DNA from: Deltaproteobacteria bacterium HGW-Deltaproteobacteria-12
GTDB lineage: Bacteria > Desulfobacterota > Syntrophia > Syntrophales > Smithellaceae
Assembly: GCA_002840565.1 (NCBI GenBank)
Contig: PHBK01000012.1
Location: forward strand, 124,001-188,000
Reading direction: 5' to 3'
DNA: 64,000 nt
In this document: piece after piece, positions 149-59,781 of the stretch
Numbering within the stretch: the first letter of the stretch is position 1
How the letters are laid out: the number at the start of each line of letters is the position of its first letter
Made by a program: the position numbers and the translations under genes
The notes under the pieces: model-generated
What the model saw: only the letters and a program-made list of their open reading frames with translations
The model's database searches: none
What the model was told of the DNA's origin: nothing

Positions 149-229
149 CCGGCATATTCCAATATTTTTATGGTTCTGCACAAGTATTTACTATAACAGG
201 CAGAATAATTCGACAGAGGAGGTATGACA

Positions 230-1894
230 ATGCGCATAGCAGAAACTCTAACTTCGGAGCTTGTATTTGTTAAAATTAAAGCAAAGGAACGGGTCGAAAC
301 CATTGATCTCCTCCTTTCCGAACTACACAAAATTCGAGGAGTAGACAAGGAAACTGCCCTGCGCGATCTTGCGGCGAATGGACAAGCAGCGACTTTACGC
401 GTCGCAGTCGGAGACAATTATCTTGCAGTCCCGCATGCAGTAACACAAGCGTCCAAACAGCTGGTCATGGCCGTCGCTACAAGTCCGGCAGGCATTCTCT
501 GGGGTGAAGGTCCGGATGAGCTGGCAAATGTGGTTATTCTGCTGTTAGGCCCTCCTCAGACGCACGGTTTATATCTTCGGGTGCTGAGCCGTATCGCCCG
601 CTTCTGCAAAACAGAAGGATTTTTGCCAAGTCTGCTGGATGCGCAATCCTCCCTTGACCTTATTGGATACCTTGAAAGCGCTGAATCATCGATGGAGGAG
701 GTGGCTGAGGAACCGGATTCTCCACGTTTCTGTGTTATTGGGGCAGGACCAGGAGGCATGGCAATGGCGGGGCATCTTGCCCTGATGGGTCGGAAAGTTA
801 ACCTTTATACGCGCAATGCCGATCGTCTTGCACCGGTGCAGGCTCGCGGAGGGATTGACGTAACCGGTGAGATCCAGGGGCTGGCAAAACTGGACGTAGT
901 GACGACGGACCCTGAAAAAGCGGTTGAGCATTCGGAAGTGCTGATGATCGTCGTGCCGGCCACAGCGCATCGCAACATAGCCAAAATCATTGCCCCCTAC
1001 ATTAAAGACGGGCAGATCATTGTGTTGAATCCCGGCCGGACAGGCGGAGCACTGGAATTTGCCCAGGTGCTGCAAACAGTCAATCCCGTGGTGCGGCCTT
1101 ATCTGGCTGAGGCGCAGACACTGTTGTATGCCTCGCGCCTCACAAATCCCGGACAAGTGCATATTTATGGAATTAAAAACTCCGTGGCATTGGCAGCTTT
1201 ACCTGCATACCAGACTGCCGATATTCTCCCGATCATCCGAACCGCACTTCCTCAATTTGTACCAGGAGATAATGTGCTGAAAACAGGTCTCGACAATATC
1301 GGTGCCGTATTCCATCCGGCGATTACACTGCTCAACTCCGCCCGCATCGAGAACACGAACGGCAATTTTCAGTTCTATCTCGAAGGGGTGACGCCGGCTG
1401 TCGCCAGTATACTGGAGGCAATTGATCAGGAGCGTGTCGCTGTGGCTGAGGCATTGGGCATCCGCGCCAACACGGCCCGTGAGTGGCTTTATCTTGCTTA
1501 TAACGCAGCGGGCAAGACATTAATTGAAGCAATGCGTGCTAACCCCGGATATCGCGGTATCAATGCGCCGTCTACCGTTCACCACCGTTATATCTCTGAA
1601 GACGTCCCCGCCAGTCTAGTGCCCATTGCCTCCATTGGGGAAATGCTCGGGGTGCGAACGCCTGCCATGCGATCCATAATTCACCTGGCCTCGGTCATGC
1701 ACGGTATAGATTACTGGGCAATCGGTCGCACTGTTGATAAACTGGGCATTGCGGGGATGTCGGTAAAAGAGATCAGGTTTCTTGTTGTCGGAGCCGAAAT
1801 GAAAGGACCGGAGCAGAAAGCCGGCAATCAGCAGGCCATTGATTATACCGCGCTGGTGGGATTCGGTAAGTATGGATTTGACGGAGGTACATAA
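230..1894 (+). CDS. PTS EIIA type-2-like domain fused to NAD(P)-dependent opine/octopine dehydrogenase family protein
   Basis: N-terminal ~150 aa with EIIA-like VGDNYLAVPHAV...LLLGPPQTHGLYLRVLSRIARF; then Rossmann motif FCVIGAGPGGMAMAGHLALMGRKVNLYTRN and the octopine-DH-like helical C-terminal half (GLDNIGAVFHPAITLLNSARIE). Confidence 0.8.
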   Translation: MRIAETLTSELVFVKIKAKERVETIDLLLSELHKIRGVDKETALRDLAANGQAATLRVAVGDNYLAVPHAVTQASKQLVMAVATSPAGILWGEGPDELANVVILLLGPPQTHGLYLRVLSRIARFCKTEGFLPSLLDAQSSLDLIGYLESAESSMEEVAEEPDSPRFCVIGAGPGGMAMAGHLALMGRKVNLYTRNADRLAPVQARGGIDVTGEIQGLAKLDVVTTDPEKAVEHSEVLMIVVPATAHRNIAKIIAPYIKDGQIIVLNPGRTGGALEFAQVLQTVNPVVRPYLAEAQTLLYASRLTNPGQVHIYGIKNSVALAALPAYQTADILPIIRTALPQFVPGDNVLKTGLDNIGAVFHPAITLLNSARIENTNGNFQFYLEGVTPAVASILEAIDQERVAVAEALGIRANTAREWLYLAYNAAGKTLIEAMRANPGYRGINAPSTVHHRYISEDVPASLVPIASIGEMLGVRTPAMRSIIHLASVMHGIDYWAIGRTVDKLGIAGMSVKEIRFLVVGAEMKGPEQKAGNQQAIDYTALVGFGKYGFDGGT

Positions 1895-3771
1895 TGAGGC
1901 CGGTAAAAACTAATCGATCCGATCGCTTCGGCCTCATACACCCTGCTATGGAGGCCCATACACTCGGAATCAATTCCGTCCAGCAGCTTCTCGAACAATG
2001 CGGTATCGCCGCGGTCATTGCCGATGCGCGTGTCTGTTCAGCCGTTGACCATCTGCATGAACCGCGGTCTATAGCAGAAATCGAACAATGGCTTCGCACA
2101 AATCGCATCACAATGCTTGGTTTCAGTTATCGTCTCGATCCCGATCAAGGGGCTGACCTTTTTGCCAACTGGGTTTATCAACTGAAAAATAAGCGTCTGC
2201 TGAGCGATCAGGGCGGACCACTGCGCGGGATCTATTTTGCCGGACTGCCGCGGGCCTGTGAACTGGTGCTTAAACTTGTTCCCGAGATTTCCGGCGTTTT
2301 TGCCGGCGACGAGACGCCCTCGGAAACACTGGCTATTCTCGGTATCGAAACCACTTGGGCGCCTGTGGAAATTTCCGGAGGCATTGCCTATGATGAGGCT
2401 CGTCTGGCGTTTGGACGGGAGCTGGTCTGCAAGGGCGACTATCTGGCGATCAAACCTGTAGACAGGTCGGGATATGAAAGTATTGGCACAAACCTCGACA
2501 CTCTGGTGGCCCGAATGAATCATTCCCGCCAGCGGAAACTGCCGCCCCTCATTCGGGCGCATGTCGGCCCGTATCTTCCTGATCGGGATGAAGCAGTGCG
2601 CCTTTTCCTCGACTGGGCGCGCCGCCTTGCCGCGTCTGGTTATCTCGATGTGCTATCCATTGGCACGTCCCAGCTCACGCAGTCAAATTTTGGTGACGAC
2701 TGGGGTGGCCGGCCCAATGGCGGTGGTGTTCCCATCAATTCTCCCGAAGAGTATAGGCAGGTATGGAGTGCATCTCGTCCGATGCTTGTACGAACCTATG
2801 CCGGTGCGCGGAATGTCCCGGCGCTGGCAAGAATCCACGAAGACTCCCTCAATATAGCCTGGCACGCTCTTTCCCTCTGGTGGTTCTGCCGGCTCGATGG
2901 GCGAGGACCGAATTCTTTGCGAGAAAATCTGGTCGAACATATCGAAGCGCTGCGCTATATTGCGTCTACGGAAAAGCCTTTTGAGCCCAACGTGCCGCAT
3001 CACTTTGCATTTCGCGGCGCTGACGACGTAACTTACATTGTATCTGCATTTCTTGCGGCCAAGCTTGCCAAAAAACTGGGTATTCGCCACCTGATCCTCC
3101 AGAACATGCTCAATACCCCGCGTTATGTCTGGGGTGTGCAGGATTTAGCCAAATCACGGGCGATGCTGCGGCTTATAAGGAAACTCGAAGATGATCATTT
3201 TACCGTAATTTTGCAGCCCAGGGGAGGGCTCGATTATTTTTCCCACGATCCGGAAAAAGCTAAAGCGCAGTTGGCGGCAGTGACGGCTCTCATGGACGAC
3301 ATCGAACCTCACGATGTTTTCAGTCCGCCCATCATCCATGTGGTCAGTTATTCGGAGGGGTTCCGTCTGGCAGATCCGCCTGTTATTGATGAGAGCATTA
3401 AAATTACGCGTCATGCGCTTGCAGAGTACCGTCGCCTGCGACAAAAAGGCGAAGTGGACGATATGACCGACCACAGGGAAGTACGCTTGCGGATGGAAGA
3501 CTTGCTGGAGCAGGCGCAAACGGTGATTGCGGCAATCGAATCAAATTTTCCCGATCCTTACAGTGCAGATGGCTTATACCGAATCTTCGCCGAAGGATTT
3601 CTGCCTGTTCCCTATTTGTGGGAATGCCGGCAAGAATTTATCAAAGCAATACAATGGCGCACAAAAGCTCTTGGTGGAGCAATTAGAATTGTGGACGAAA
3701 CGGGCGCAGTTATATCTGCCGCCGAACGTGTTCGTTTTCTACTGGACCAAGCCAGAGCAGGCAGCGCGTAA
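1894..3771 (+). CDS. Cobalamin-binding-like domain plus mutase (glutamate mutase E-like) barrel protein
   Basis: N-terminus GLIHPAMEAHTLGINSVQQLLEQCG contains E-x-H-x-x-G, close to the B12-binding DxHxxG motif; downstream RTYAGARNVPALARIHEDSLNIAWHALSLWWFCRLDGRGP resembles B12 mutase catalytic chains; TAATG overlap with the upstream gene. Confidence 0.55.
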   Translation: MRPVKTNRSDRFGLIHPAMEAHTLGINSVQQLLEQCGIAAVIADARVCSAVDHLHEPRSIAEIEQWLRTNRITMLGFSYRLDPDQGADLFANWVYQLKNKRLLSDQGGPLRGIYFAGLPRACELVLKLVPEISGVFAGDETPSETLAILGIETTWAPVEISGGIAYDEARLAFGRELVCKGDYLAIKPVDRSGYESIGTNLDTLVARMNHSRQRKLPPLIRAHVGPYLPDRDEAVRLFLDWARRLAASGYLDVLSIGTSQLTQSNFGDDWGGRPNGGGVPINSPEEYRQVWSASRPMLVRTYAGARNVPALARIHEDSLNIAWHALSLWWFCRLDGRGPNSLRENLVEHIEALRYIASTEKPFEPNVPHHFAFRGADDVTYIVSAFLAAKLAKKLGIRHLILQNMLNTPRYVWGVQDLAKSRAMLRLIRKLEDDHFTVILQPRGGLDYFSHDPEKAKAQLAAVTALMDDIEPHDVFSPPIIHVVSYSEGFRLADPPVIDESIKITRHALAEYRRLRQKGEVDDMTDHREVRLRMEDLLEQAQTVIAAIESNFPDPYSADGLYRIFAEGFLPVPYLWECRQEFIKAIQWRTKALGGAIRIVDETGAVISAAERVRFLLDQARAGSA

Positions 3772-3786
3772 GAAAGGAGAGCTAAG

Positions 3787-5109
3787 ATGACGGCTATTGC
3801 TGGAATATTTGCAACGCAAAGCGGGGATATTGTCGAGCGGATGCTCGCGAGGATGCGGCACCGAGCACAAGGTGAAATAAAGATTCATACGTCAGCCACA
3901 GCGGCCCTGGGTGTGATACACAAAGACGGAATGAAGCCTCCAGCCGATAAAAACAGGGTGGAAGACCGAATCAGCGATCGTCATTACAGTTTTGTCCAAG
4001 AAGTCACGGGTCAGCCCTTCTTCGAGCGCGATTTCCTCGGCATTGTCCCGCTGTATTATGGCCGGCGGGAAGATGGCGCATTGTGCTTTGCTTCGGAAGT
4101 TAAGGGACTGCTGGAGGCAACCGGAGACATTAATGAATTTCCTCCCGGCTGCAGCTACGACGGTAAAACATTTGCGCGCTTTTTTAAATTGAAGCCGTCA
4201 GTCCACCTCTCTGAAAATCCCGACCGGATTGCGGCTGAGTTGCGTGTACGATTGGAAAAAGCTGTGCAAAAGAGAATCTTCTCCGACGAAACCGGCTGCT
4301 ATCTTTCGGGCGGACTTGATTCCAGCATCATGGCCGCTCTTGCACGAAGGCATGTAAGAAAGCTTTGGAGCGTTGCTGCAGGTGTTGCTGGAGCACCTGA
4401 TCTGGAGGCCGCAAGAGAAGTTGCTGATTTTATCAAAGCCGATCATCAGGAGGTCATTGTCACACCGGCAGACATGCTGCGCATTCTCCCGGATGTAATC
4501 TGGCATCTGGAATCATTCGATGCATTGCTGGTGCGTTCCAGTATCATGCAATATTTTGCATCACAGCGGTTGATCCAGCATGCGACCGATGCCTTTTCCG
4601 GTGAAGGCGGAGATGAACTCTTTGCGGGATACGCCTATATGAAAAATATGACGCAAGAGAGATTAAACGACGAATTGATCGAAAGCACCGGCCGGCTTCA
4701 CAACACTGCCCTGCAACGAGTTGATCGCTGTTCAACAGCCCACGGACTGCGAGCGCATGTATGCTTTCTCGATCCGGCGGTTGTGGAATACGCGCTGCAA
4801 ATTCCCACGGAGTTGAAACTGCGTGCCGGCGTTGAAAAGTGGATCGTCCGCCAGGCTTTTGCCAATCTTTTGCCCGAGCGGATTATTAAGCGAGCCAAGG
4901 TTAAATTCTGGGAAGGGGCGGGTGTGCAGGATCTTCTTGCTCAACATGCGCAAACGGTCATTTCGGACGGTGACTTCAGCCGCGAGCGAACCCTCCCGAA
5001 CGGTTGGGTACTGGGCAGCAAAGAAGAATTAATGTATTATCGCATCTTTTGTGAACGTCTGGGGCCAATCCCGAAACTTGACTGGATGGGGCGTACGCCT
5101 TCTTCTTAA
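3787..5109 (+). CDS. Asparagine synthetase-like amidotransferase with degenerate glutaminase domain (no Cys2)
   Basis: Starts MTAIAGIF (no Cys at position 2); RDFLGIVPLYYGRREDGALCFASEVKGLL; PP-loop GCYLSGGLDSSIMAAL; FSGEGGDELFAGY. Confidence 0.8.
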   Translation: MTAIAGIFATQSGDIVERMLARMRHRAQGEIKIHTSATAALGVIHKDGMKPPADKNRVEDRISDRHYSFVQEVTGQPFFERDFLGIVPLYYGRREDGALCFASEVKGLLEATGDINEFPPGCSYDGKTFARFFKLKPSVHLSENPDRIAAELRVRLEKAVQKRIFSDETGCYLSGGLDSSIMAALARRHVRKLWSVAAGVAGAPDLEAAREVADFIKADHQEVIVTPADMLRILPDVIWHLESFDALLVRSSIMQYFASQRLIQHATDAFSGEGGDELFAGYAYMKNMTQERLNDELIESTGRLHNTALQRVDRCSTAHGLRAHVCFLDPAVVEYALQIPTELKLRAGVEKWIVRQAFANLLPERIIKRAKVKFWEGAGVQDLLAQHAQTVISDGDFSRERTLPNGWVLGSKEELMYYRIFCERLGPIPKLDWMGRTPSS

Positions 5110-5187
5110 AAGCACGGAGAAATTATACCGGCGCCGGGCATTGTTGAAAAAACAACATAAAGCTAATTTTTGAGGGCTGCGGAAGGC

Positions 5188-5742
5188 ATGGCAGATATAG
5201 CTGCTATCTATCATTCGGAAATATTTAAAATTGTTATTTTAACACTGGTCATTTTTTTTGCCCGCATTTGTGATGTGTCTCTCAGTACACTCAGAATTAT
5301 ATATACATCTCGCGGCTTAAAATTTTTGGCGCCGCTGATTGGATTTTTTGAGGTCCTGATCTGGCTTATTGCCATGTCGCAGATTATCAATAATCTGACG
5401 AATTTTGTTCTTTATATTGCTTACGCAGGAGGTTTTGCCGCCGGAAATTTCATCGGCATATTAATAGAGGAAAAAATGGCTATCGGCACCGTCATTATTC
5501 GGATCATTACACAAAAAGAGGGGAGCGAATTGATTGAATCTCTTAAATGCGGGGGCTACGGAGTTACATACACGCCGGCGCAAGGAGCAATGGGGCCGGT
5601 AAAAATCATTTTTACTATTGTGAAAAGAAAAGACATTAATCATGTGCTGGAGATCGTCCGTCACTGCAATCCCCTGGCTTTCTTCACAATTGAAGACGTT
5701 CGTTCCGTCCGTAAGGGGTTATTCCCGTTGACAAAAAAATAG
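5188..5742 (+). CDS. DUF2179/DUF5698 (UPF0316) family membrane protein
   Basis: Three N-terminal hydrophobic segments (RICDVSLSTLRIIYTSRGLKFLAPLIGFFEVLIWLIAMSQI) then a small soluble domain. Confidence 0.7.
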   Translation: MADIAAIYHSEIFKIVILTLVIFFARICDVSLSTLRIIYTSRGLKFLAPLIGFFEVLIWLIAMSQIINNLTNFVLYIAYAGGFAAGNFIGILIEEKMAIGTVIIRIITQKEGSELIESLKCGGYGVTYTPAQGAMGPVKIIFTIVKRKDINHVLEIVRHCNPLAFFTIEDVRSVRKGLFPLTKK

Positions 5743-5970: not shown

Positions 5971-6954
5971 ATGAAAGCTCAGAAATATATCGAAAATGCC
6001 AAAGGACACATCGTTTTATATAAAAACAAAATAGAAGTTCGTTTGGTAGAAGATACCGTCTGGTTGACGCAGAAACAGATGGCCGACTTGTTTGACACGG
6101 AAAGGAGCGTTATAACAAAGCATTTAAAAAATATATTTAATTCTAATGAGTTAAATGAAAAAAGCAATGTGCAAAAAATGCACATTGCAAATTCTGACAA
6201 GCCTGTTGCTTTTTATAATCTGGACATCATTATTTCAGTTGGCTATCGCGTCAATTCGCTTCGTGGCACGCAGTTCCGCATCTGGGCGACCAATGTTTTA
6301 CGCACGCATCTGGTGGACGGCTACACCATCAACGAAAAACGACTGAAAGCCCAGCAAAACAAAATCACTGAATTGCAGAATGCCTTGCGCCTGCTGGGCA
6401 ATGTCGCTCTTCTGGAAGGTGTCTCCGATGAAGCGAAGGGAATAGTTCAGATCATTTCTGAATACTCACGAGCATTAAATATTCTTGACGACTATGACCA
6501 TCAGCGTCTTGCGTCACCCAAAGGCACTAAAAAATCAAAATTTAAACTGACGCATGAAGAAGCTAGAAATATCATTGAACAGATGAAAAAGAAATTCAAG
6601 GATTCCGCTCTTGTCGGCCAGGAAAAAGACAAAAGCTTTCAGGGTTCCATCGGCGCAATTTACCAGACATTTGATGGTAAAGACGTCTATCCCACCACAG
6701 AAGACAAAGCGGCTCATTTGCTTTACTTCGTAACAAAGAATCACAGTTTTGTGGACGGCAATAAACGCATAGCGGCTGCGCTGTTCATATGCTTCCTTCA
6801 AAGAAACGGCATCTTGCTAGATAAAGACGGAAACAAACGCATTGACGACAATGCACTTGTCGCTTTGACACTAATGATCGCCGCCAGCAAGCCAGCGGAA
6901 AAAGACATCATGATAAAAGTTATCTTGAATCTGTTAATGGAGAACAAGCGTTAA
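5971..6954 (+). CDS. RhuM-family N-terminal domain fused to Fic/Doc-type domain
   Basis: VRLVEDTVWLTQKQMADLFDTERSVITKHLKNIF (RhuM-like); C-terminal HSFVDGNKRIAAALF Fic/Doc motif. Confidence 0.85.
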   Translation: MKAQKYIENAKGHIVLYKNKIEVRLVEDTVWLTQKQMADLFDTERSVITKHLKNIFNSNELNEKSNVQKMHIANSDKPVAFYNLDIIISVGYRVNSLRGTQFRIWATNVLRTHLVDGYTINEKRLKAQQNKITELQNALRLLGNVALLEGVSDEAKGIVQIISEYSRALNILDDYDHQRLASPKGTKKSKFKLTHEEARNIIEQMKKKFKDSALVGQEKDKSFQGSIGAIYQTFDGKDVYPTTEDKAAHLLYFVTKNHSFVDGNKRIAAALFICFLQRNGILLDKDGNKRIDDNALVALTLMIAASKPAEKDIMIKVILNLLMENKR

Positions 6955-7271: not shown

Positions 7272-9572
7272 ATGGACCAAGCCACGCATAACAAGATCGT
7301 ATCATTCATCTGGGGAATTGCCGATGATGTGCTACGTGATTTATTCAAACGTGGAAAATATCCGGATGTTATTTTGCCCATGTGCGTCATCCGGCGTATG
7401 GACGCCGTGCTGGAACCCACCAAGCAAGCAGTTCTCGACACCAAAAAAATGCTGGACGAAGCGCGTATTACCGAGCAACGTTCAGCACTTGCCGATGCCG
7501 CAGGCCAGGCCTTTTATAATACATCACGATTCACATTGCGCGATTTGAAATCCCGTGGCAGCCAGCAACAGCTTCTTGCTGATTTCAAAGACTATCTCAA
7601 TGGCTTTTCGCAAAACGTCCAAGACATTCTGGAAAACTTCAAGTTTCGCAATCAGCTTTCGACACTTTCCAAAGCCGATGCTCTAGGCACATTAATCAAT
7701 AAGTTTCTCGATCCCGAAATTGATCTGACACCAAATGGCATCGACAACCATGCAATGGGAACAGTCTTTGAGGAATTAGTTCGCAAGTTCAATGAAGACA
7801 ACAACGAAGAAGCGGGCGAGCACTGGACGCCGCGTGATGCGGTGCGGCTTATGGCCAACCTTGTATTTCTGCCGATTAGAGACAAGCTAAAGTCCGGCAC
7901 ATATCTGCTCTATGATTGCGCGTGCGGCACAGGCGGCATGCTTACTGTGGCGGAGGAAACACTCAAAGAAATTGCAAAGAAGCGTGGCCTTCAAATTGAC
8001 AGCCGCCTGTTCGGGCAGGAAATAAATCCGGAAACCTACGCTATCTGCAAGGCGGATATGTTGCTTAAAGGTGAAGGTGAAAATGCTAACCGCATCACTG
8101 GTGGCGCGGAATGGTCAACTTTGTCCAACGATGCCTTCCCAGCGTATGAGTTCGATTTCATGCTTTCCAATCCGCCTTATGGAAAAAGCTGGAAGAAAGA
8201 CCTCGAAGCAATGGGCGGTAAGGACGGCATACGCGATCCTCGCTTCAAGGTAATGCACAACGGTGAAGAACTTTCGCTTATCACGCGCTCAAGCGACGGC
8301 CAGATGCTTTTTCTTGCCAACATGGTTTCGAAGATGAACGATAAATCGCAGCTGGGCAGTCGTATTGCAGAGGTAAATAACGGCTCATCACTATTCACCG
8401 GTGATGCCGGGCAAGGCGAGAGCAATATCCGCCGCTGGCTTATAGAAAACGATTGGCTTGAAGCCATTGTCGCACTGCCGCTCAACTTATTTTACAACAC
8501 CGGCATTGCCACCTATATCTGGGTACTGTCGAATAGAAAACCAGAGCACCGTAAGGGCAAAGTGCAACTCATCGACGCAACTCAATGGTATAAACCGCTT
8601 CGCAAAAATCTTGGCAAGAAAAACTGTGAACTTTCACCTGAAGATATCGAACGCATCAGCACAACATTTCTCGATTTCCAGGAAACGCCGGAGTCGAAGA
8701 TATTCACCAATGATGCTTTCGGATATTGGAAAGTGACAGTTGAGCGCCCGCTTCGCCTCCACAGTCAGCTTACACTAAAAAACATCGAAATACTGCGCTT
8801 AGCTTCGGGTGATGAAACTATCCGCACCGATTTGTATGATGAATTTGGCGAAGACCTTTTTACGGATTTCGCAAAGGTATATGAAAAACTGGAAAAGCGG
8901 CTTGCCGAATGGGTTAAAGATGATGAAGAAGAGAGTGATGAAAATGTTGACAAACCTAAAGGCTTATCGGATAAAAAGAAAAAGAAGTTGCTCGATGCAA
9001 AAACATGGGAACGTGATGGGCGCCTTTTAGAAATTACCACTAAGCTGCGTAAGACTCTTGGTGATAAGCTCTATGAAGATCATAATGTTTTCCGTGTAGA
9101 AGTTGATAATGCTCTAAAAAATGCAAACATCAAGATATCCGCATCCGATCTTAAGGCTATTCTTAAAGCAGTGAGCTGGAGGGTGGATACAGCGCCGCAA
9201 GTGATTTCTAAAATACATAAGCCTAGCAAGGTTAAGGTCAATCCTATGTATGGCTTATATGAAGCAGTTGTGGACGGCAAGCCTGCAATCGTCGAATATG
9301 AACCTGATTCTGAACTGCGCGATACCGAACAGGTGCCGCTTCTTGAAGATGGCGGCATAGAAGCTTTTATCAAACGTGAAGTTCTGCCATACACACCCGA
9401 TGCATGGATCAAGAAAGATGCAACAAAGATAGGCTACGAAATCAGCTTTACCCGCCACTTTTATAAACCTCAACCATTGCGCACGTTGGAGGAAATTCGA
9501 AAAGATATTCTTGCCATTGAAAAAGAGGCCGAAGGTTTGTTGGATGATCTGCTGCAAGGTAAAGAAAAATGA
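7272..9572 (+). CDS. hsdM: Type I restriction-modification system methyltransferase subunit HsdM
   Basis: HWTPRDAVRLMANL; CACGTGGML SAM-binding motif; DFMLSNPPYGKSW (NPPY N6-adenine MTase); 4-bp ATGA overlap with the next gene. Confidence 0.95.
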   Translation: MDQATHNKIVSFIWGIADDVLRDLFKRGKYPDVILPMCVIRRMDAVLEPTKQAVLDTKKMLDEARITEQRSALADAAGQAFYNTSRFTLRDLKSRGSQQQLLADFKDYLNGFSQNVQDILENFKFRNQLSTLSKADALGTLINKFLDPEIDLTPNGIDNHAMGTVFEELVRKFNEDNNEEAGEHWTPRDAVRLMANLVFLPIRDKLKSGTYLLYDCACGTGGMLTVAEETLKEIAKKRGLQIDSRLFGQEINPETYAICKADMLLKGEGENANRITGGAEWSTLSNDAFPAYEFDFMLSNPPYGKSWKKDLEAMGGKDGIRDPRFKVMHNGEELSLITRSSDGQMLFLANMVSKMNDKSQLGSRIAEVNNGSSLFTGDAGQGESNIRRWLIENDWLEAIVALPLNLFYNTGIATYIWVLSNRKPEHRKGKVQLIDATQWYKPLRKNLGKKNCELSPEDIERISTTFLDFQETPESKIFTNDAFGYWKVTVERPLRLHSQLTLKNIEILRLASGDETIRTDLYDEFGEDLFTDFAKVYEKLEKRLAEWVKDDEEESDENVDKPKGLSDKKKKKLLDAKTWERDGRLLEITTKLRKTLGDKLYEDHNVFRVEVDNALKNANIKISASDLKAILKAVSWRVDTAPQVISKIHKPSKVKVNPMYGLYEAVVDGKPAIVEYEPDSELRDTEQVPLLEDGGIEAFIKREVLPYTPDAWIKKDATKIGYEISFTRHFYKPQPLRTLEEIRKDILAIEKEAEGLLDDLLQGKEK

Positions 9573-10939
9573 TCGCTGATCTCCAGCCATATAAAGAATA
9601 TAAAGAATCAGGTTCAAGGTGGCTGGGGAATGTGCCGTCCCATTGGGGCGTGCACAATCTTCGCACACTCATACGTCGCAGAAATGAACGACATAGAACT
9701 GACTTATCCTTGCTTTCCGTTGCCCGTGAAAAGGGAGTGTTTGTCCGTTCTCTCACTGATGACAGTGAAAACCATAATGTCATACCGGAAGACTTGAGTA
9801 ATTATAAAGTCGCCCGCGCGGGAAATCTCGTTATCAACAAGATGAAAGCGTGGCAGGGTTCGATGGGGATTGCGCCATGTGATGGGATCGTTAGCCCTGC
9901 ATACTATGTGTTTGATTTTGATATTGCACACCGATCTTTCGGGCAGGTTCTACTGCGCAGCAAACCTTATGTTGCGCACTTTGCACAAGCTTCCGATGGT
10001 GTACGCATAGGCCAGTGGGATTTGACCATTGCCGGCATGCGCCAAATTCCCGTGCTTGTACCAAAAGAAGAAGAGCAGACGGCGATTGTGCGGTTTTTGA
10101 ATTGGACTAATAATAGGTTGGGGCGGGCTGTCAAAGCGAAGCAAAAGCAAATTGCTCTACTCAATGAGCAAAAGCAGGCCATCATAAACCGTGCTGTGAC
10201 TCGTGGCCTCAATCCTTCTGTGCCTCTTAAGCCATCCGGCATTCCTTGGGTCGGCGATATTCCGAAACATTGGAAGATGCGTAAACTGCGACAAATCCTT
10301 ACACGTGTGACAGAACGAAATCGTCCAGATTTACCACTGCTTTCTGTTGTGCGAGAAAAAGGCGTAATTAAACGCGACACTGAAAATTTTGAAGAGAACC
10401 ATAACTATATTCCTGCTGATTTAAGTAACTACAAGATAGTAAAAGCCGGGCAGTTTGCGATGAATAAAATGAAAGCATGGCAGGGGTCCTATGGTTTATC
10501 CGAGTTTGATGGCATTGTTAGTCCAGCATATTTTGTCTTCAGTTTAAGTGGCGTAAATGGTGATTTCTTTCATACTGCACTTCGCTCAAGAGCATACGTG
10601 CCATTTTTTACTCAAGCATCGGATGGTGTTCGTGTAGGGCAGTGGGATCTTGCAGAAGCGCGAATGAAGGAAATTCCATTTTTCTTTCCATCATCCGGTG
10701 AACAAATTGATGTAGTTAAATTTGTTAATGATGCTACGGCAGAAATTACTAGTGCCATATCGCGCCTCAAAACCGAAATAGCACTGCTCCTCGAATACCG
10801 TACGCGCCTTGTTTCTGATGTGGTAACAGGTAAACTAGATGTCCGTGAGGCCGCGGCAAAGTTGCCAGAGGAAGAAATAGAAGAAATCACCGAGGCAAGT
10901 GAAGATATGGAATCTGCTGATGAGGAGATTGCTGTATGA
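9569..10939 (+). CDS. hsdS: Type I R-M specificity subunit HsdS with two similar TRDs
   Basis: Two tandem TRD repeats (SRWLGNVPSHWG... and IPWVGDIPKHWK...) each followed by a helical spacer. Confidence 0.93.
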   Translation: MIADLQPYKEYKESGSRWLGNVPSHWGVHNLRTLIRRRNERHRTDLSLLSVAREKGVFVRSLTDDSENHNVIPEDLSNYKVARAGNLVINKMKAWQGSMGIAPCDGIVSPAYYVFDFDIAHRSFGQVLLRSKPYVAHFAQASDGVRIGQWDLTIAGMRQIPVLVPKEEEQTAIVRFLNWTNNRLGRAVKAKQKQIALLNEQKQAIINRAVTRGLNPSVPLKPSGIPWVGDIPKHWKMRKLRQILTRVTERNRPDLPLLSVVREKGVIKRDTENFEENHNYIPADLSNYKIVKAGQFAMNKMKAWQGSYGLSEFDGIVSPAYFVFSLSGVNGDFFHTALRSRAYVPFFTQASDGVRVGQWDLAEARMKEIPFFFPSSGEQIDVVKFVNDATAEITSAISRLKTEIALLLEYRTRLVSDVVTGKLDVREAAAKLPEEEIEEITEASEDMESADEEIAV

Positions 10940-13900
10940 CCACTGATATTTCCGAAAAAGGGCTGGAGACGATTATCGTGCGTTACATGACCGGCACTGA
11001 CGGTCTGGATGTCGCTGCAAGTATGGTGGCCGAAACACAGGATGAAATTGCCCTGCAAAAAGCGGAAGGCATAGGATACTGGGCAGGAAACGCAAAGGAA
11101 TTTGACCGCGCTCACGCGATCGATGTACCACAGTTGTTTGCATTCTTGAAATCGACGCAGCTCGAGGCCTTTAAAAAACTTGGGCCCGCCAGTTTTGATT
11201 CCAAAGACATCAACCGTCTGAAATTTCTTACCCGTCTTTCGTCGGAAATCGGCAAACGCGGCGTCATTGATGTTTTGCGCAAAGGGATTGACTTTCATCC
11301 TGCTGGTCACTTTGATTTGTTTTACGGCACGCCCTCGGAAGGTAACGTAAAAGCGGAACAACTTAATGCCTTAAACCGCTTTTCTATCACTCGTCAGCTT
11401 GCCTACAGTACCGATGAGACGCGACGAGCATTAGACCTATGTTTGTTTATCAATGGTCTGCCGATTGCGACCTTTGAATTGAAAAACAGTCTTACCAAAC
11501 AGACAGTGGAAGACGCAATTGAGCAATACCGACGCGACCGCAACCCTCGCGAGAAGCTCTTTGAACTTGGTCGTTGCATTGTGCACTTTGCAGTTGATGA
11601 CAGCGAGGTGCGCATGTGCACGCAGCTTGCGGGCAAGGCTTCCTGGTTTTTACCATTAAATAAAGGGTTCAACGATGGCGCGGGCAATCCCCCCAATCCC
11701 CTCGGACTAAAGACCGATTATCTCTGGAAAGAAATACTTACACCGGCAAGCTTAACTAATATTTTGGAAAACTACGCCCAGATTGTCGAAGTTAAAAACA
11801 AGAAGACAGGCAAGAAGAAACGCAATCAAGTTTTCCCGCGTTATCATCAACTCGATGTTGTCAGAAAAACGCTGGCAGATGTGCAAGAGCATGGCGTGGG
11901 CAAGAAGTATCTTATTCAGCATTCAGCGGGAAGCGGAAAATCCAACTCCATTGCGTGGCTGGCCCATCAACTCATCGGTGTCAAGCGAACGGGTAAGGAA
12001 ATTTTCGACTCGGTCATCGTGGTAACAGACCGGCGAATTCTGGACGATCAAATTCAAAACACAATCAAACAATTCTTGCAGGTAAAGGCGACAGTCGGCC
12101 ATGCCGAAAACTCCGGCGATTTGCGCAAGTATATTGAGCAGGGTAAGAAAATCATCGTTTCAACAGTGCAAAAGTTTCCTTTCATTCTTGATGAAATAGC
12201 GAATGAAGGCGGCAAAACATTCGCCATCGTGATTGACGAGGCTCATTCCAGTCAGGGCGGCAAGACTTCCGCGGCCATGAGCAAGGCGCTGGGGAAAAAG
12301 ACAGACAAAACAGAGGAAGAACCTGATCCCGAAGATACGGTCAATGAAGCATTAGAGCAGCGCATGGCGGCACGTAAGATGTTGACCAATGCAAGTTACT
12401 TCGCTTTTACCGCCACACCCAAGAACAAAACGCTGGAATTGTTCGGCGAAGCGCTGCCGCCAGACGCCGAGGGCAAGATCAAGCACCGGCCTTTCCATTT
12501 CTACACGATGAAGCAGGCAATTGAAGAACGCTTTATCCTTGATGTTCTTAAAAGCTACACACCGGTAAACAGTTACTACAAGTTGGTTAAAAGGATAGAA
12601 GGCGACCCGGAATACGATACCCAAAAAGCGCAGAAAAAATTACGCCGCTACGTGGAAAGTCACGAGCACGCCATCCGGCTGAAGGCCGAGATCATGGTTG
12701 ATCACTTCCATGAGCAGGTTCTTGCAGCAGGAAAGATCGGCGGGCAGGCGCGGGCGATGGTGGTGACAAGCGGCATCGAAAGAGCAATTCAATATTATCA
12801 AGCGATTAAAAATTATCTGGTTGAGCGAAAGAGTCCATATCAGGCTATTGTTGCGTTTTCGGGCGAGCATGAATATGACAGCGTAAAAGTCAGCGAGACA
12901 TCTCTCAATGGTTTTTCAAGCGGCGACATTGCCGAAAAGATACAGACTGATCCGTATCGTTTTCTGATTTGTGCCGATAAGTTCCAGACGGGTTATGATG
13001 AACCGCTTCTGCATACGATGTATGTGGATAAGCCGCTTTCCGGAATCAAAGCGGTGCAAACGTTGTCAAGACTGAATCGCGCCCATCCGCAGAAGTACGA
13101 CTGCTTTGTGCTGGACTTTCAAAACAGCAGCGAAACAATAACTTATGCTTTTCAGGATTATTACCGCACGACGCTGCTTGCGGAAGAAACCGATCCGAAC
13201 AAGCTCAACGATCTGAAAACGGCACTCGACAGTGCACAGGTATATTCTCCGGCGCAGGTTCAAGAAATAGTTGAATTATTCCTGAGCAATGCTGAACGCG
13301 ATAAGCTTGATCCCATCCTTGATGATTGTGTAGCGGTATACAATGAAGCGTTGGATGAAGATCAACAGGTGGAATTCAAAGGCAAGGCAAAAGCGTTTTG
13401 CCGTACTTATGATTTTCTCGCTTCAATCATGATGTACACGAACCGCGAATGGGAAAAACTTTCCATCATGCTCAATTTGTTGACGCCGAAACTGCCGGCA
13501 CCCAAGGAAGAGGATTTGTCCAGAGGCATCCTTGAAGTTATTGATATGGATAGCTATCGCGTTGAGAAGAAAGCGGCAATGAAGATTGCATTGGCAGATC
13601 AGGATGCGGAAATTGAACCAGTGCCAACGGATATTGAGGGAAGAAAAAGAGAACCGGAACTGGATCGTCTCAGTAATATCCTGAAAACATTTAATGAACA
13701 ATTCGGCACGCTTTTCAGCGATGCCGATCGTGTTGTCAAACGCATACGGGAAGATATCGCGCCCAAAGTTGCTGCTGATAATGCCTATCGGAATGCCAAA
13801 GAGAATACACCACATACAGCGCGCATGGCCCATGATCAGGCGCTCGGCAAAGTGATGCAGCTTTTACTCAAGGACGACACACACGTCTATAAACAGTTCG

Positions 13901-13962
13901 TCGAAAATGAATCATTCCGGCGCTTTGTCGGTGACATGGTGTACACGCTGACGAATCAATAA
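10936..13962 (+). CDS. hsdR: Type I restriction endonuclease subunit HsdR
   Basis: Nuclease-like PIATFELKNSLTKQTVEDAIEQY; Walker A HSAGSGKSNSIAWLAHQL; IDEAHSSQGG; FAFTATPKNKTLELFG. Confidence 0.95.
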   Translation: MTTDISEKGLETIIVRYMTGTDGLDVAASMVAETQDEIALQKAEGIGYWAGNAKEFDRAHAIDVPQLFAFLKSTQLEAFKKLGPASFDSKDINRLKFLTRLSSEIGKRGVIDVLRKGIDFHPAGHFDLFYGTPSEGNVKAEQLNALNRFSITRQLAYSTDETRRALDLCLFINGLPIATFELKNSLTKQTVEDAIEQYRRDRNPREKLFELGRCIVHFAVDDSEVRMCTQLAGKASWFLPLNKGFNDGAGNPPNPLGLKTDYLWKEILTPASLTNILENYAQIVEVKNKKTGKKKRNQVFPRYHQLDVVRKTLADVQEHGVGKKYLIQHSAGSGKSNSIAWLAHQLIGVKRTGKEIFDSVIVVTDRRILDDQIQNTIKQFLQVKATVGHAENSGDLRKYIEQGKKIIVSTVQKFPFILDEIANEGGKTFAIVIDEAHSSQGGKTSAAMSKALGKKTDKTEEEPDPEDTVNEALEQRMAARKMLTNASYFAFTATPKNKTLELFGEALPPDAEGKIKHRPFHFYTMKQAIEERFILDVLKSYTPVNSYYKLVKRIEGDPEYDTQKAQKKLRRYVESHEHAIRLKAEIMVDHFHEQVLAAGKIGGQARAMVVTSGIERAIQYYQAIKNYLVERKSPYQAIVAFSGEHEYDSVKVSETSLNGFSSGDIAEKIQTDPYRFLICADKFQTGYDEPLLHTMYVDKPLSGIKAVQTLSRLNRAHPQKYDCFVLDFQNSSETITYAFQDYYRTTLLAEETDPNKLNDLKTALDSAQVYSPAQVQEIVELFLSNAERDKLDPILDDCVAVYNEALDEDQQVEFKGKAKAFCRTYDFLASIMMYTNREWEKLSIMLNLLTPKLPAPKEEDLSRGILEVIDMDSYRVEKKAAMKIALADQDAEIEPVPTDIEGRKREPELDRLSNILKTFNEQFGTLFSDADRVVKRIREDIAPKVAADNAYRNAKENTPHTARMAHDQALGKVMQLLLKDDTHVYKQFVENESFRRFVGDMVYTLTNQ

Positions 13963-15693: not shown

Positions 15694-17415
15694 TTATTTA
15701 GCTATCTTATTATCCGTAAAGATTCGCTGGAGTTTGCTGTTAAAATCGCTTTCGCGGTAAATTTTAAACCACCGGTTAACGATTGCCCCCGCGTATGTCT
15801 TGACAAACAGATTTCTCCATATTTTTTTTACATCTCCCCAGGCATTCGCCAGCGGCACGGTGAAAACCGCATGCAATGTCCAAACATTACGCATCTGTTT
15901 TCTTGCTCTTAGTCTTTCGAGTAAATTACGCATAAACCGCCGGACATAAAACTCGACAATCTGAATGGGAAATCCAATAGTGGCAATATACGCCCAGTTG
16001 AGCCAATTGCCGTAATTTAAATTCCTTCTGATGAATCCTCCAAGATACATTTTCTTCATAATCAGAGTGGGCATGTTTTGCAGATCAAATGCATCCAGCC
16101 CGTCCGGTCGGGGATCGTAGCAAAGAAAAAGTCCATCATATTTATCCCAGCCAACCAGCGAAAGAGGCAGAAGGCGGCCTTCGCTCTCCAGCCTTGCTCG
16201 GAGTTCGGAACCGGGAAGCGGGACTGCATTGAGCACCTGGATTGTGTCTATGCCTGATTTTTTAAAAAACTCTTTGTAAAATTCAGCCCGCTGTTTGATG
16301 GTGTAAAAAGAGCTTCGCGGTGTGTTCTTGTTTAATGGATAGCCGAAAATGAACATGCCATGCAGATAAAAATAGTCGGATAGTTTTTTGGAACGGGCAA
16401 TTAATTTTTCCGCCGTTACGCCTTTACGCATTGCCAGAAGTTCTTCGTTAATCGGACTTTCGTAGCCGATGGCCAGCATGGAAACACCGGCATAGCGCAT
16501 GGCCTCGATCAATTCGTCGTTTTCCGCAACTTCGGAACGTACCTGAACAATGAGATTAAGCTTCTTCAGGAACTGCCTTTTATAATCACCGATCTTTCTG
16601 CACAGAGCGATAGCATCGGCGGGATTCTGTGCGAAATTATCGTCGGTGAAAAAGAATTTATTGTAACCCAGGTCAGTATATTTAATCAGCTGTCGCAGGG
16701 TTGTATCAGCCGAAGTGCATTTATATTTTCCATATCTCTTATTGACGACACAGAATTCGCAATTCCAGTTGCAGCCGCGTCCACGGTTGAGTGGAATATA
16801 ACTCCATCTATTTTTCAGGAATTTAATTAAAGTCAGATCGGGATCAACCAATTCATTAAGATCATTAATCGGCTGGCGCTTGCCGGTAAAAACATATGCT
16901 CCGGTTTCGTCCAGAAAACTGATGCCCTTTACTTGAGTCAATCCGGTCCGGTTCAGCAAAACGCCGCTGTCGGATATTAAGACTGTCAGCAATTCCAGGA
17001 TGGTTTCTTCACCTTCACCATGAACGACAATATCCACGCCTGAGCGGAGCGCTTCCTGCGGCAGGGCATCCACATGGCTGCCGCCGGCTATGGTTATGGC
17101 GCCATAGTCTTTGTATTGGGCGGCTACGGCATATAAACGGGGTATGGAGTTACTCATGCCGCCGTAAAACAAAGCCAGTTGGGCGGGTTGCTTGGCCTGT
17201 AAAAAAGAATGATCCGGCTGCCCCGTAAAATCCTGCGGCCCGTTATAATTATTTTCATCAATCGCATAAACTTCTTTCAAACGGGGATGATGATTGATCT
17301 GGCTCAGAACAGACAGGATACCCACCGGAGGCATTTTTATCTTGGCGTATATATTTTGCTGCGAATGCTTCGGATATTGCGGAATGATGCCGATAATGGT
17401 CAATTCTCTTTTCAT
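15694..17415 (-). CDS. B12-binding-domain radical SAM protein
   Basis: RGRGCNWNCEFCVVNKRYG (CxxxCxxC); N-terminal domain with GGSHVDALPQEALRSGVDIVVHGEGEETILELL. Confidence 0.88.
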   Translation of the reverse strand: MKRELTIIGIIPQYPKHSQQNIYAKIKMPPVGILSVLSQINHHPRLKEVYAIDENNYNGPQDFTGQPDHSFLQAKQPAQLALFYGGMSNSIPRLYAVAAQYKDYGAITIAGGSHVDALPQEALRSGVDIVVHGEGEETILELLTVLISDSGVLLNRTGLTQVKGISFLDETGAYVFTGKRQPINDLNELVDPDLTLIKFLKNRWSYIPLNRGRGCNWNCEFCVVNKRYGKYKCTSADTTLRQLIKYTDLGYNKFFFTDDNFAQNPADAIALCRKIGDYKRQFLKKLNLIVQVRSEVAENDELIEAMRYAGVSMLAIGYESPINEELLAMRKGVTAEKLIARSKKLSDYFYLHGMFIFGYPLNKNTPRSSFYTIKQRAEFYKEFFKKSGIDTIQVLNAVPLPGSELRARLESEGRLLPLSLVGWDKYDGLFLCYDPRPDGLDAFDLQNMPTLIMKKMYLGGFIRRNLNYGNWLNWAYIATIGFPIQIVEFYVRRFMRNLLERLRARKQMRNVWTLHAVFTVPLANAWGDVKKIWRNLFVKTYAGAIVNRWFKIYRESDFNSKLQRIFTDNKIAK

Positions 17416-38781: not shown

Positions 38782-40419
38782 TTATTTTTTCTTGCGGTTG
38801 ACCTGATCTTTGAGTCTCTTGATATGGCCCCGTCCCAGGCCCTTGACTTCACAGCCTAATGCCAGATAACGGCAGATGACTGCATCATCGAGAATGCCGA
38901 AGCAGTCGATGACGGCTATCGGATGGCCGGCTGCCTTGACAATCTTCGCGGGATCCAGGTGGAGATAGGCTTCATGACGCACCGCTAAAACCAGGGCGTC
39001 TATATTTTTCAGGGATTTGTTCAAATCCTTTTGCACGCGCAGGGCGGTGAGTTTTTTCTGGTTGCGAAAGAAGACGGATTTGCTGTTGTTGGGATACTCT
39101 TCCTGATTTTCGAACTCAAACCAGTGATCGACGTAGGGGTCATGGATCCGAATTTCAGCGCCCATTTCCGTGAGCCGGCGAATAAGAATTTCGGAGCCGC
39201 TGTATCTTGTATCACCTACATCCTCGCGGTAAGAGGCGCCCAGAATCAGCACTTCCGCGCTGGCAATCGGCATGCTCATATTGCGCAAGGCATCGCGCAC
39301 GAGTTGGGCGGCATGCAGCGACCGGGTGTCATTGATATCAATGGCCAGTGGAGTCATCCGAAATGTGTCGTCTTCAAAACCCAGAATATGCCGGTTGGCC
39401 CACACGCCGAGGCCGCCGTCTTTCGGCAGACAGTAGCCGCCGACGCCCGGTCCGGGGAAAATCATGTTCGAGTGCGTCGGCCGCACTTTTATGGCCTTGA
39501 TGACTTTGATGATATCCACACCGTTTCTTTCGGCAAAAAGGCTCCACTCATCCAGAAAGGCAAGAATAGTGGCGCGGTAGCTGTTCTCGACAACCTTGGC
39601 CGTCTCTGATTCAATTGGCCGATCCAGCACGGTCAGAGGAAACTTTTTGGTGTTGAGCACTTCATTGAGGAATTTGACCACTCTTTGTTTGGCCGCTTCG
39701 TTGACGCCGGAGCAGACGCGCCAGAAATCACGAATGGAGGCGACGTAATCTCTCCCCGGCATAACACGTTCATAGCTGTGGGCAATCAGCGGATCACTTT
39801 TGATTCCTCTCTGACGAAAGACCTTTCTCATGGCCGGCAGGGCCACCTGCTCGGTAGTTCCGGGCGCCACGGTTGTTTCAATGAGCACCAGGCATGAAGC
39901 CGGAATATGATGGGCGATGATGTCAAATGATTCCTCCAGGGCGCTCATATCAACCTGTCCGTTGCGAACATTGCCCAGTTCGTTTTTTACATAATCCAGC
40001 TGAACGTCCACGACCACGACATCAGCCAGGGCCAGAACGTCGTAAACAAAAGTCGCAACCAGTGTCTTCTTCTCCAGGACGCAGCGCCGGATCATGGGGT
40101 CCACTTCGGGATCCTCCGCCTTGACCGGTGAGATTCCCTCGTTGAGTTTTGGTATTTTCCAGTAGCTCCTGGTGCTCGGCCGCTGCATGCCGATGACGAA
40201 CTTGCCGGACTTGCCTTTCTCATTGGTCGTGTCGGCGACAATGGCCGCCATGACGGAACCGACAAAGCCGATACCCATGACAACAACGATCTCCTGCTTC
40301 TTCTTACGGGCCTGGGCTACCAGTTTTTCGATGCGGGCTATTTCCTTTTTGTAGTCTTCGTCCTTTGGTAAGGGATATTTGATGCCGTCCGGACTGATGG
40401 AAATGGGCTGATTCATCAT
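38782..40419 (-). CDS. UDP-glucose/GDP-mannose dehydrogenase family nucleotide-sugar dehydrogenase
   Basis: VVMGIGFVGSVMAAIVAD; ETAKVVENSYRATILAFLDEW; GPGVGGYCLPKDGG. Confidence 0.9.
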   Translation of the reverse strand: MMNQPISISPDGIKYPLPKDEDYKKEIARIEKLVAQARKKKQEIVVVMGIGFVGSVMAAIVADTTNEKGKSGKFVIGMQRPSTRSYWKIPKLNEGISPVKAEDPEVDPMIRRCVLEKKTLVATFVYDVLALADVVVVDVQLDYVKNELGNVRNGQVDMSALEESFDIIAHHIPASCLVLIETTVAPGTTEQVALPAMRKVFRQRGIKSDPLIAHSYERVMPGRDYVASIRDFWRVCSGVNEAAKQRVVKFLNEVLNTKKFPLTVLDRPIESETAKVVENSYRATILAFLDEWSLFAERNGVDIIKVIKAIKVRPTHSNMIFPGPGVGGYCLPKDGGLGVWANRHILGFEDDTFRMTPLAIDINDTRSLHAAQLVRDALRNMSMPIASAEVLILGASYREDVGDTRYSGSEILIRRLTEMGAEIRIHDPYVDHWFEFENQEEYPNNSKSVFFRNQKKLTALRVQKDLNKSLKNIDALVLAVRHEAYLHLDPAKIVKAAGHPIAVIDCFGILDDAVICRYLALGCEVKGLGRGHIKRLKDQVNRKKK

Positions 40420-42848: not shown

Positions 42849-44108
42849 TTATTTAAATCTTCTGCGAATTCCGGCCAAACCCAGCAGACCTAAACCGAGA
42901 AGCAGCATACTCGTGGGCTCGGGAACACCGGGAGGAGGAGGAGGAATTTCCGTCGCATTCAGAATATTGATGTACCAGGGGGTAGCCAACACAGGACCCC
43001 AGTACCAGTAGCCACCCCATGAACCATCACCGTTTTGACTATTCACCAGGTAATTAGTGTAATCCTCCCACCAGTTCCACGTGTCACCATCATCCATTAC
43101 ACCGGGAGCATGTAAATTCGCAATTTCCGTTGAGTTTCCCAGACCTATAGTTGTCTGCAAGCCTTTGTAAACACCCCACATGGCATAAGGGTGGCCGAAA
43201 TTCCCATCCCAGCTGTTTGGCCCATTTTGCCACCTGTTATCCAGAAAATCCAGGGCCTGTTGTTTGCCCAACGTGTCGCCTGTTTTGTAACCGTCATACC
43301 CGGCAAAGGCCATTTCCACGAGCAGACCGCCGGTCTTGGATTCATTGGTGTAACTACCGGGAGAATCATAACCGGAACCGCCGGTGGGATGCTGGATGTA
43401 ATCAATCCAGATTTTCAATTCATCCTTGACAAATTGAGGGATCGTAGCTCCGTGTGACTGGGCATACATCATGCCGACTACCGGCCATTGTGCAGTGGAG
43501 TTATCCGAATCCCCGGAATTTGCAGAATAGCGCCAGGCGCCCCGTGCAGTTCCGCTTTCATTCTGCCCCCAGGCAAAATAGTCCACCGTATCCTGGATGA
43601 CGTCACTGTAAGTTCTGCCGATTTGCGAGCCGACTGTGATCACATCACCTAAGTTCCCCCGCACGGCCAGGGCGGGCATCACCAGCCCGGTGACATAAGT
43701 GTCCCGGCTGTTAGCGCCACCGAGGACAAATTTTACCCCGATACCGTTGCCGTTGGTGTCGGGATTCCCGTAGGTTTGCATCCCAATTCCGACAGTTTGT
43801 GCGTTAGCCATTAAATAATCATAGCCTTTGTTAACAACGGTAGTATAATCAACGCCGAACCATCCCCCGGGTTTATTCTTCTGTTCCATAAACGCCGTCA
43901 GGGCGGCGCCTGTGGCAGCCACATCTCCTGAACCGTATTCCCCGTAATTCCACCGGCCGTCAGACAACTGATTAGCCGCCATCCAGGCCAGGCCCTTTTT
44001 GATGGCCTCAGCTTTCTGTGCTTCCGTTGCCGCCCAGGCCGGCGTCATCATCAACGTCAATAGCCCGGCAGCAAGAAGCATTGTAAAAATTCTTTTGAAC
44101 TTCCTCAT
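42849..44108 (-). CDS. PEP-CTERM protein with prenyltransferase/squalene-cyclase-like repeats
   Basis: LAWMAANQLSDGRWNYGEYGSGDVAATGAALTAF; NGDGSWGGYWYWG; C-terminus VPEPTSMLLLGLGLLGLAGIRRRFK. Confidence 0.9.
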   Translation of the reverse strand: MRKFKRIFTMLLAAGLLTLMMTPAWAATEAQKAEAIKKGLAWMAANQLSDGRWNYGEYGSGDVAATGAALTAFMEQKNKPGGWFGVDYTTVVNKGYDYLMANAQTVGIGMQTYGNPDTNGNGIGVKFVLGGANSRDTYVTGLVMPALAVRGNLGDVITVGSQIGRTYSDVIQDTVDYFAWGQNESGTARGAWRYSANSGDSDNSTAQWPVVGMMYAQSHGATIPQFVKDELKIWIDYIQHPTGGSGYDSPGSYTNESKTGGLLVEMAFAGYDGYKTGDTLGKQQALDFLDNRWQNGPNSWDGNFGHPYAMWGVYKGLQTTIGLGNSTEIANLHAPGVMDDGDTWNWWEDYTNYLVNSQNGDGSWGGYWYWGPVLATPWYINILNATEIPPPPPGVPEPTSMLLLGLGLLGLAGIRRRFK

Positions 44109-46449: not shown

Positions 46450-46532
46450 AAAGTTTATTTGCAGGCCTGCGCCATTATAGATGCATAACTATAAATAGTT
46501 GAGATCGCAAAGAACGGCAAGGAGGAGACATT

Positions 46533-47372: not shown

Positions 47373-47465
47373 GAGTTAGGCATGGGCGTGGTCGAATTCC
47401 CGACGCCTGAAGATGATTAATCACCATTAAAACATAACAGGGAGGTGGAGGGGGGGTAAATAATT

Positions 47466-48980: not shown

Positions 48981-49004
48981 TTAAAGCCTAAGGAGGGTTC
49001 TTAA

Positions 49005-50195: not shown

Positions 50196-50230
50196 TGAAA
50201 TAAGATTTATTAACGATTAAGGAGAATTCC

Positions 50231-52609: not shown

Positions 52610-52651
52610 CCGGCTGCTCAGGCCATTATCAATGAGGAGAGGGGAAAGTTC

Positions 52652-53890: not shown

Positions 53891-53944
53891 CAAGATTATT
53901 CTCATAATATCGGACAATAGCATGTGGTTCACAGGAGGTTGGAA

Positions 53945-54880: not shown

Positions 54881-54894
54881 GAGGAGAAGATAAA

Positions 54895-55695: not shown

Positions 55696-55716
55696 TCAGC
55701 ATTAAGGAGGTCTTTC

Positions 55717-57084: not shown

Positions 57085-57125
57085 ACGCCGATCGCATTTT
57101 GAAGAAATTATAAGGAGTGTGCAGA

Positions 57126-58292: not shown

Positions 58293-58320
58293 GCAGAAGT
58301 TCAAAAAAAAAGGAGAATTT

Positions 58321-58761: not shown

Positions 58762-58771
58762 GGAAAACTGA

Positions 58772-59686: not shown

Positions 59687-59781
59687 ATAAATTTAAAAAA
59701 AATTATATTTATCACTATCGCATTATGTGCAGCAACAAAACGATTGCAGCAAGATGCAGTTGAACGGACCGGAGTAGATAA

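Follow-up and report, generated by a model that had tools for sequence, protein, structure and literature searches.

An operon pairing an opine dehydrogenase with a glutamate-mutase-like protein and an amide ligase may make an amino-acid-derived compatible solute

Introduction

What might be made by three abutting genes for an opine dehydrogenase (ODH), a cobalamin-dependent mutase and a ligase resembling asparagine synthetase B (AsnB)? The question is raised by a locus on the + strand near the start of a 64,000-nucleotide stretch of DNA (here called the window, meaning the whole stretch) from Deltaproteobacteria bacterium HGW-Deltaproteobacteria-12, contig PHBK01000012.1, positions 124,001 to 188,000. 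On balance, the trio (genes 1 to 3, Table 1) is probably the enzymatic core of an osmotically controlled module for the synthesis of a small compatible solute derived from an amino acid. More tentatively, we suggest as a serious possibility that this solute belongs to a new class: an opine bearing an amide or peptide and built on a rearranged amino acid, made with a new family of fused cobalamin mutases, controlled by cyclic di-AMP (c-di-AMP) and cation riboswitches, served by a dedicated MscS-type channel and spread over many little-studied phyla.

A preliminary description of this DNA gave the three genes as abutting and co-directional, with a TAATG stop/start overlap between genes 1 and 2 and a gap of 15 bp between genes 2 and 3; the arrangement and its coordinates are just so, and the three family calls (ODH, B12 mutase-like, AsnB-like without Cys2) are borne out by Pfam, motifs and fold comparison. 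A strong, GGAGG-like ribosome site precedes the start of each gene, and since GAGGAGGT abuts position 224, the true start of gene 1 is probably ATG 230 rather than 224. We keep the small modified amino acid once proposed as product, as the most natural output of the trio. The same description knew of no pathway containing it, and no account of a set of ODH, B12 mutase, ligase and channel was found in the open-access literature searched, subscription papers lying outside that search; as far as we have found, the module would be a biosynthetic operon of the osmolyte type whose enzyme content is without precedent. Three features lay outside the window or can be seen only in other genomes, and so were missed earlier: the MscS channel, an ATP-grasp alternative to the AsnB-like enzyme, and the c-di-AMP and cation riboswitches, which point to osmoadaptation.

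Table 1. Coordinates of the trio, its domains and the adjoining channel gene (window positions unless a locus is named)
Feature	Position	Strand	Size or basis
Gene 1, EIIA-fused opine (octopine/nopaline-type) dehydrogenase (ODH)	224..1894	+	556 aa
Gene 2, cobalamin-dependent mutase, unnamed family	1894..3771	+	625 aa; B12 domain and TIM barrel
Gene 3, AsnB-like ATP-PPi ligase; its glutaminase domain is degenerate and Cys-less	3787..5109	+	440 aa
Gene 1 ribosome-binding site, GAGGAGGT	216..223	+	sequence
PTS EIIA_2 (PtsN/FruA-like) domain, gene 1 N-terminus	248..676	+	Pfam, alignment
Opine dehydrogenase part of gene 1	719..1780	+	CENDH alignment
B12-binding Rossmann domain (gene 2)	1921..2343	+	E-x-His22-x-x-Gly25, S78-x-R80-L81, G107-G108
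Glutamate-mutase-epsilon-like TIM barrel (gene 2)	2491..3693	+	profile alignments, conservation
Host-contig MscS gene, upstream of the window	L015 10847-11902		three Pfam MS_channel domains

Conservation of the module

The preliminary description would have given up its idea if the three genes did not recur together. They do recur: in a sample of 66 mutase loci from genome collections, an ODH gene adjoins the mutase gene in 64, in several phyla and on the same strand in 63, and an AsnB-like gene stands alongside in 15. The two loci without an adjacent ODH are L010 and L080, the latter on a contig that stops 127 bp upstream. The mutase was found in 2 of 395 genomes of the window's phylum. For the phylum to which an Armatimonadota metagenome-assembled genome (MAG) belongs the figure was 64 of 291, for that of a Phycisphaerae MAG 3 of 343 and, in two further sets, 8 of 388 and 9 of 393 (the latter the phylum of a Spirochaetes MAG); Clostridia and Omnitrophota MAGs also contain mutase loci. 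Searches of plasmids and viral contigs gave no homologue, and carriage by such elements was rejected.

An amide- or peptide-forming ligase lies near the mutase (neighbours were counted within 4 kb) in 25 of the 66 loci; it is AsnB-like in 15 and of the ATP-grasp type in 11, one locus having both. In lineages other than that of the window, the mutase and ODH genes can have an ATP-grasp amino-acid ligase as their neighbour. All nearby AsnB-like, ATP-grasp and channel genes are on the mutase strand, and 321 kb of farther flank yielded no AsnB, no channel and two ATP-grasp matches. For the examples compared with Pfam, the assignments as channel or ATP-grasp protein were upheld. Complete sets occur with both subfamilies of the mutase (see below), in the order channel-ODH-mutase-AsnB in L119 and mutase-AsnB-ODH-channel in L150.

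A protein with two ATP-grasp stretches (D-Ala-D-Ala ligase-like) and an alanine racemase is encoded beside the mutase-ODH pair in L142 (3667-6786), and an alanine-racemase-like gene follows the pair in L118. In the window, a gene for a DUF5698/DUF2179 membrane protein (5170-5742) lies on the same strand 60 bp past the trio; it is found at no other locus and was rejected as a fourth member of the module.

Riboswitches and a mechanosensitive channel

Rfam scans reached most of the 66 loci, though not every one, and about 796 kb in all. They turned up seven aptamers for c-di-AMP (ydaO/yuaA; in L073, L075, L077, L083, L108, L114 and L116) and no further match to this class. Each of the seven is placed directly upstream of the gene that opens the module, on its strand and about 30-350 bp away, and they occur with both mutase subfamilies. 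Two other loci, L004 and L140, have an aptamer of the nhaA-I (Li+) class upstream of the module genes; in L004 a small hydrophobic ORF of about 109 aa (7790-8119) stands between riboswitch and ODH. No B12 riboswitch was present in the scanned loci, and control of the module by such an element was rejected. Riboswitches for c-di-AMP control osmotic-stress and cell-wall genes, and those for c-di-AMP and Na+ govern a radical enzyme, lysine 2,3-aminomutase, whose product is the precursor of an osmolyte (PMC9337991).

Genes for MscS or MS_channel_1st_1 proteins occur within 4 kb in 22 of the 66 loci. The host's own MscS gene lies about 322 bp upstream of gene 1; it was outside the view of the preliminary description because the window begins 98 bp after its end. 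Channels of this type export amino acids (PMC6110860, PMC12541555), and MscS genes are frequent in ectoine clusters (PMC13342039). In L139 (3651-5354), the gene directly after the mutase encodes a Na+/H+ exchanger that carries an EIIA_2 domain, while in the window such a domain is fused to the ODH.

The opine dehydrogenase and the direction of the pathway

Gene 1 matches Octopine_DH (PF02317; E 9e-50, 169 bits against a cut-off of 30) and PTS_EIIA_2 (E 5e-15). Its closest solved relative is CENDH, N-(1-D-carboxylethyl)-L-norvaline dehydrogenase (PDB 1bg6; E 6e-81), which aligns end to end with the whole ODH part; the NAD Rossmann motif (GAGPGG, at residue 173) is common to both, and His364 of an FHP motif aligns with the HP motif of CENDH. 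Where the two differ is in the N-terminal EIIA domain, a fusion found only in the proteins of the window, L005 and L118, which in gene 1 retains a His of the phosphorylatable type (VPHA, His71). We take gene 1 to be an ODH of the octopine/CENDH type, predicted to catalyse a reductive condensation.

Such an enzyme might also serve a module that makes a secreted specialised metabolite, whether signal, opine-like nutrient or metallophore, in which case the channel would be an exporter and osmotic control secondary. Opine dehydrogenases do produce opines as well as metallophores of the opine type, amino acids can leave the cell through MscS-type channels (PMC6110860), and the distribution of the module is sporadic, as its rarity in the window's phylum illustrates. 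However, the ODH is of the octopine type and the staphylopine-type family is not among 15 Pfam matches, no nicotianamine-synthase-like or metal-uptake partner recurs next to it in the gene listings, and c-di-AMP and cation riboswitches would be atypical for a metallophore. A secreted product is therefore unlikely, and the metallophore envisaged in the preliminary description finds no support in protein family or neighbouring genes.

The reversibility of opine dehydrogenases allows the opposite direction, with the ODH oxidising an opine and the other two enzymes channelling the amino acid released; glutamate mutase is classically a fermentation enzyme. Yet degradation is hard to square with a ligase that consumes ATP and with osmotic riboswitches, and next to the mutase-ODH pair there is no recurrent gene for a transporter, lyase or deaminase, which makes a catabolic role quite unlikely.

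A fused cobalamin-dependent mutase

Neither gene 2 nor subfamily A of the mutases contains a Pfam family above cut-off. In an alignment of 14 sequences, the N-terminus carries the pattern [DE]xHxxG...SxRL...GG, like that of B12 domains binding in the base-off/His-on mode, and His22 and Gly25 of this pattern are invariant in all 52 mutase homologues; 27 of the 28 proteins of subfamily A begin it with Asp, and the window protein with Glu. Subfamily B (L079-L083, L100-L117, L119 and L150), found by profile, consists of proteins of 540-560 aa that are ~30% identical to subfamily A, have the same arrangement and likewise lie beside an ODH. Their B12 domain is clearer, with a significant match to PF02310 (E about 1e-10), and they apparently form a family without an existing name, in Armatimonadota. 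The B12 domain is fused N-terminally to the barrel in every one of the 52 mutases.

A sequence search of the PDB with the mutase profile gave chance matches only, and a comparison of folds was therefore required. The AlphaFold2 model of gene 2 (pLDDT 89.5, pTM 0.88) has glutamate mutase epsilon as its top Foldseek match (1cb7_B, E 6.5e-13), followed by ornithine and lysine aminomutases and then hydroxyisobutyryl-CoA mutase, ahead of other TIM barrels. By hhalign, a profile made from the two subfamilies together matches glutamate mutase epsilon across 431 columns, at E 3e-8 and a probability of 94%. The best of 20 column shuffles reached only E 0.08, and three unrelated families yielded nothing; the 14-sequence alignment gave E 7e-4 at a probability of only 27%. 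Sequence comparison by itself thus makes a moderate case for kinship with glutamate mutase, and the predicted fold a stronger one.

Glutamate mutase (GlmES/MutES; PDB 1cb7, 6h9e) shares with gene 2 the TIM barrel, a B12 Rossmann domain with HxxG and a similar C-terminal segment; its B12 domain is a separate sigma subunit, whereas that of gene 2 is part of the same chain, and gene 2 falls below detection by the glutamate mutase family PF06368. The substrate of glutamate mutase is held by an arginine claw: its glycyl part is bound by R66 and R149, its acrylate part by R100 (PMC9545868). In the profile alignments, Arg149 corresponds to Arg300 of gene 2 and Arg66 to a basic residue, Arg221 or His223 depending on the alignment, but the position of Arg100 is taken by Gln263, so the full claw is not present; all four gene 2 residues are invariant (52/52). 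Where glutamate mutase has Glu171, subfamily A has His324 and subfamily B mostly Gly. Gene 2 thus looks like a relative of glutamate mutase that has kept the clamp for the alpha-carboxylate and not that for the migrating side-chain carboxylate. Because an invariant Gln replaces Arg100, plain glutamate is not the expected substrate, and we infer another amino acid or a derivative.

A cobalamin protein of another kind, such as a methyltransferase or a B12/light sensor regulating the ODH, could also have low sequence identity to characterised mutases and lack a Pfam family above cut-off, as subfamily A does, and the want of B12 riboswitches in the scanned loci would suit it. This is very unlikely, as the best fold matches are all adenosylcobalamin isomerases and the substrate-clamp arginine is invariant, together with many barrel residues, over two subfamilies of 30% identity.

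The AsnB-like ligase

Gene 3 matches Asn_synthase (PF00733, E 6e-62) and retains the PP-loop (SGGLDSS) and SGEGGDE; with asparagine synthetase B (PDB 1ct9) it has in common the ATP-pyrophosphatase site, the SGEG motif and the C-terminal Lys region. It differs in starting with MTAIAG, and hence lacking Cys2, in its shrunken N-terminal domain and in its score of 314.5 bits with the NCBIfam AsnB equivalog, below the cut-off of 499. In a tree of 21 AsnB proteins, the Cys-less enzymes (window, L002, L004, L006, L102, L119, L140 and L018) form one clade with 100/100 support, from which Cys2 is absent throughout. Seven of these eight lie in the module, in five or so phyla, and the genome of the eighth, L018, has the module on a broken contig. 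Some other ligases of the module, unlike gene 3, retain Cys2: it was seen directly in the operon AsnBs of L075 and L143, and those of L068, L071, L073, L077 and L150 start with MC in the gene listings.

The preliminary description had considered a lactam. Gene 3 scores 158 bits with AsnB and only 71 and 54 with the beta-lactam and carbapenam synthetases (1jgt/1q15), and the operon homologues of other phyla keep Cys2; amide formation is therefore likelier than lactam formation, and a lactam synthetase is not supported. The amide is not likely to be ordinary asparagine. The complete host genome has no second AsnB homologue and no asparaginyl-tRNA synthetase (AsnRS) above cut-off and does have GatB, so that Asn-tRNA should come from transamidation rather than from free asparagine; free asparagine would then not be needed for translation, which argues for a dedicated amide-forming step. 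That gene 3 is the host's plain asparagine synthetase, standing by chance of position beside two unrelated genes, gains from its being the sole AsnB homologue there, yet the transamidation route, the score below the AsnB cut-off and the well-supported Cys-less clade make this scarcely credible, and the housekeeping role was rejected.

A proposed pathway to a compatible solute

The enzymes can be arranged in a plausible order. The fused mutase would first use an adenosylcobalamin radical to rearrange a substrate resembling an amino acid, in either its carbon skeleton or its amino group. The AsnB-like ligase would then adenylate a carboxylate and convert it to an amide, with glutamine as the likely nitrogen source for the Cys2 homologues and ammonia or an amine for the Cys-less clade of the window. 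Lastly, the ODH would condense an amine with a 2-keto acid and NAD(P)H, an N-alkylation. Exchanging side-chain charge for amides and secondary amines would give a soluble molecule of low net charge, suited to accumulation as a solute, which the linked MscS-type channel may release upon hypo-osmotic shock. Synthesis would be tied to osmotic or ion state by the c-di-AMP or cation riboswitches and, in the window, possibly by the EIIA domain.

Three known osmolyte systems come close to this scheme. The asnO-ngg operon for N-acetylglutaminylglutamine amide (NAGGN) combines an AsnB-type amidating enzyme with a second amide-forming enzyme to make a small amide osmolyte (PMC8070244); the module has no GNAT enzyme and has the opine dehydrogenase and B12 mutase instead, and gene 3 is not a member of the NAGGN amidotransferase family TIGR03104 (111 bits, cut-off 570). 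The lysine 2,3-aminomutase (ablA) system likewise uses a radical mutase to make an unusual amino acid as osmolyte precursor under c-di-AMP and cation riboswitches (PMC9337991), but ablA is a radical-SAM enzyme with pyridoxal phosphate, whereas the module enzyme is of the cobalamin type, and the partner genes differ. Ectoine clusters have solute-synthesis genes adjoining an MscS-type channel (PMC13342039), while the module lacks ectABC and would use other chemistry.

Assignment to osmoadaptation draws mainly on the riboswitches and channels of other genomes; for the window it draws on homology, on the upstream MscS gene and, weakly, on the EIIA domain. Several observations weigh against it. The window's own locus gave no riboswitch, even at E up to 1, and in most loci (37 of the 66), several of them short contigs, there is no channel close by and no riboswitch was detected. 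Plain MscS genes are common, and with a gap of 322 bp co-transcription of the host's MscS gene with the trio is not certain. An AsnB or ATP-grasp gene is missing from more than half of the loci. Since the channel and ATP-grasp queries were drawn from nearby genes, the enrichment of these genes is biased upward; their agreement in strand is less affected. For the mutase, the profiles of subfamilies A and B each failed, when used singly, to give a local match to glutamate mutase in one hhalign setting.

If a compatible solute is indeed the product, an adenosylcobalamin radical mutase joins osmolyte biosynthesis, and glutamate mutase gains a relative with a testable change in its active site. The opine dehydrogenases of Armatimonadota, Spirochaetes, Planctomycetes and other little-cultured groups would acquire a function, and an abundant intracellular solute not yet identified is to be expected. 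The riboswitches make the physiological role testable without knowledge of the product.

Other features of the window

Downstream of the trio, a RhuM-Fic fusion (5971-6954) lies ahead of type I restriction-modification genes (7272-13962), comprising a 766-aa methylase-like ORF, a 456-aa ORF and HsdR. A radical SAM protein with a B12-binding domain is encoded on the - strand at 15694-17415. Positions 42849-44108 and 38782-40419 encode a PEP-CTERM protein and a UDP-glucose/GDP-mannose dehydrogenase. The cluster at 45475-60489 contains genes for a glycyl-radical enzyme (PFL-like, 792 aa), an aldehyde dehydrogenase, an iron alcohol dehydrogenase, an MFS transporter, MmgE/PrpD and an acyl-CoA dehydrogenase, and looks like a putative anaerobic degradation pathway.

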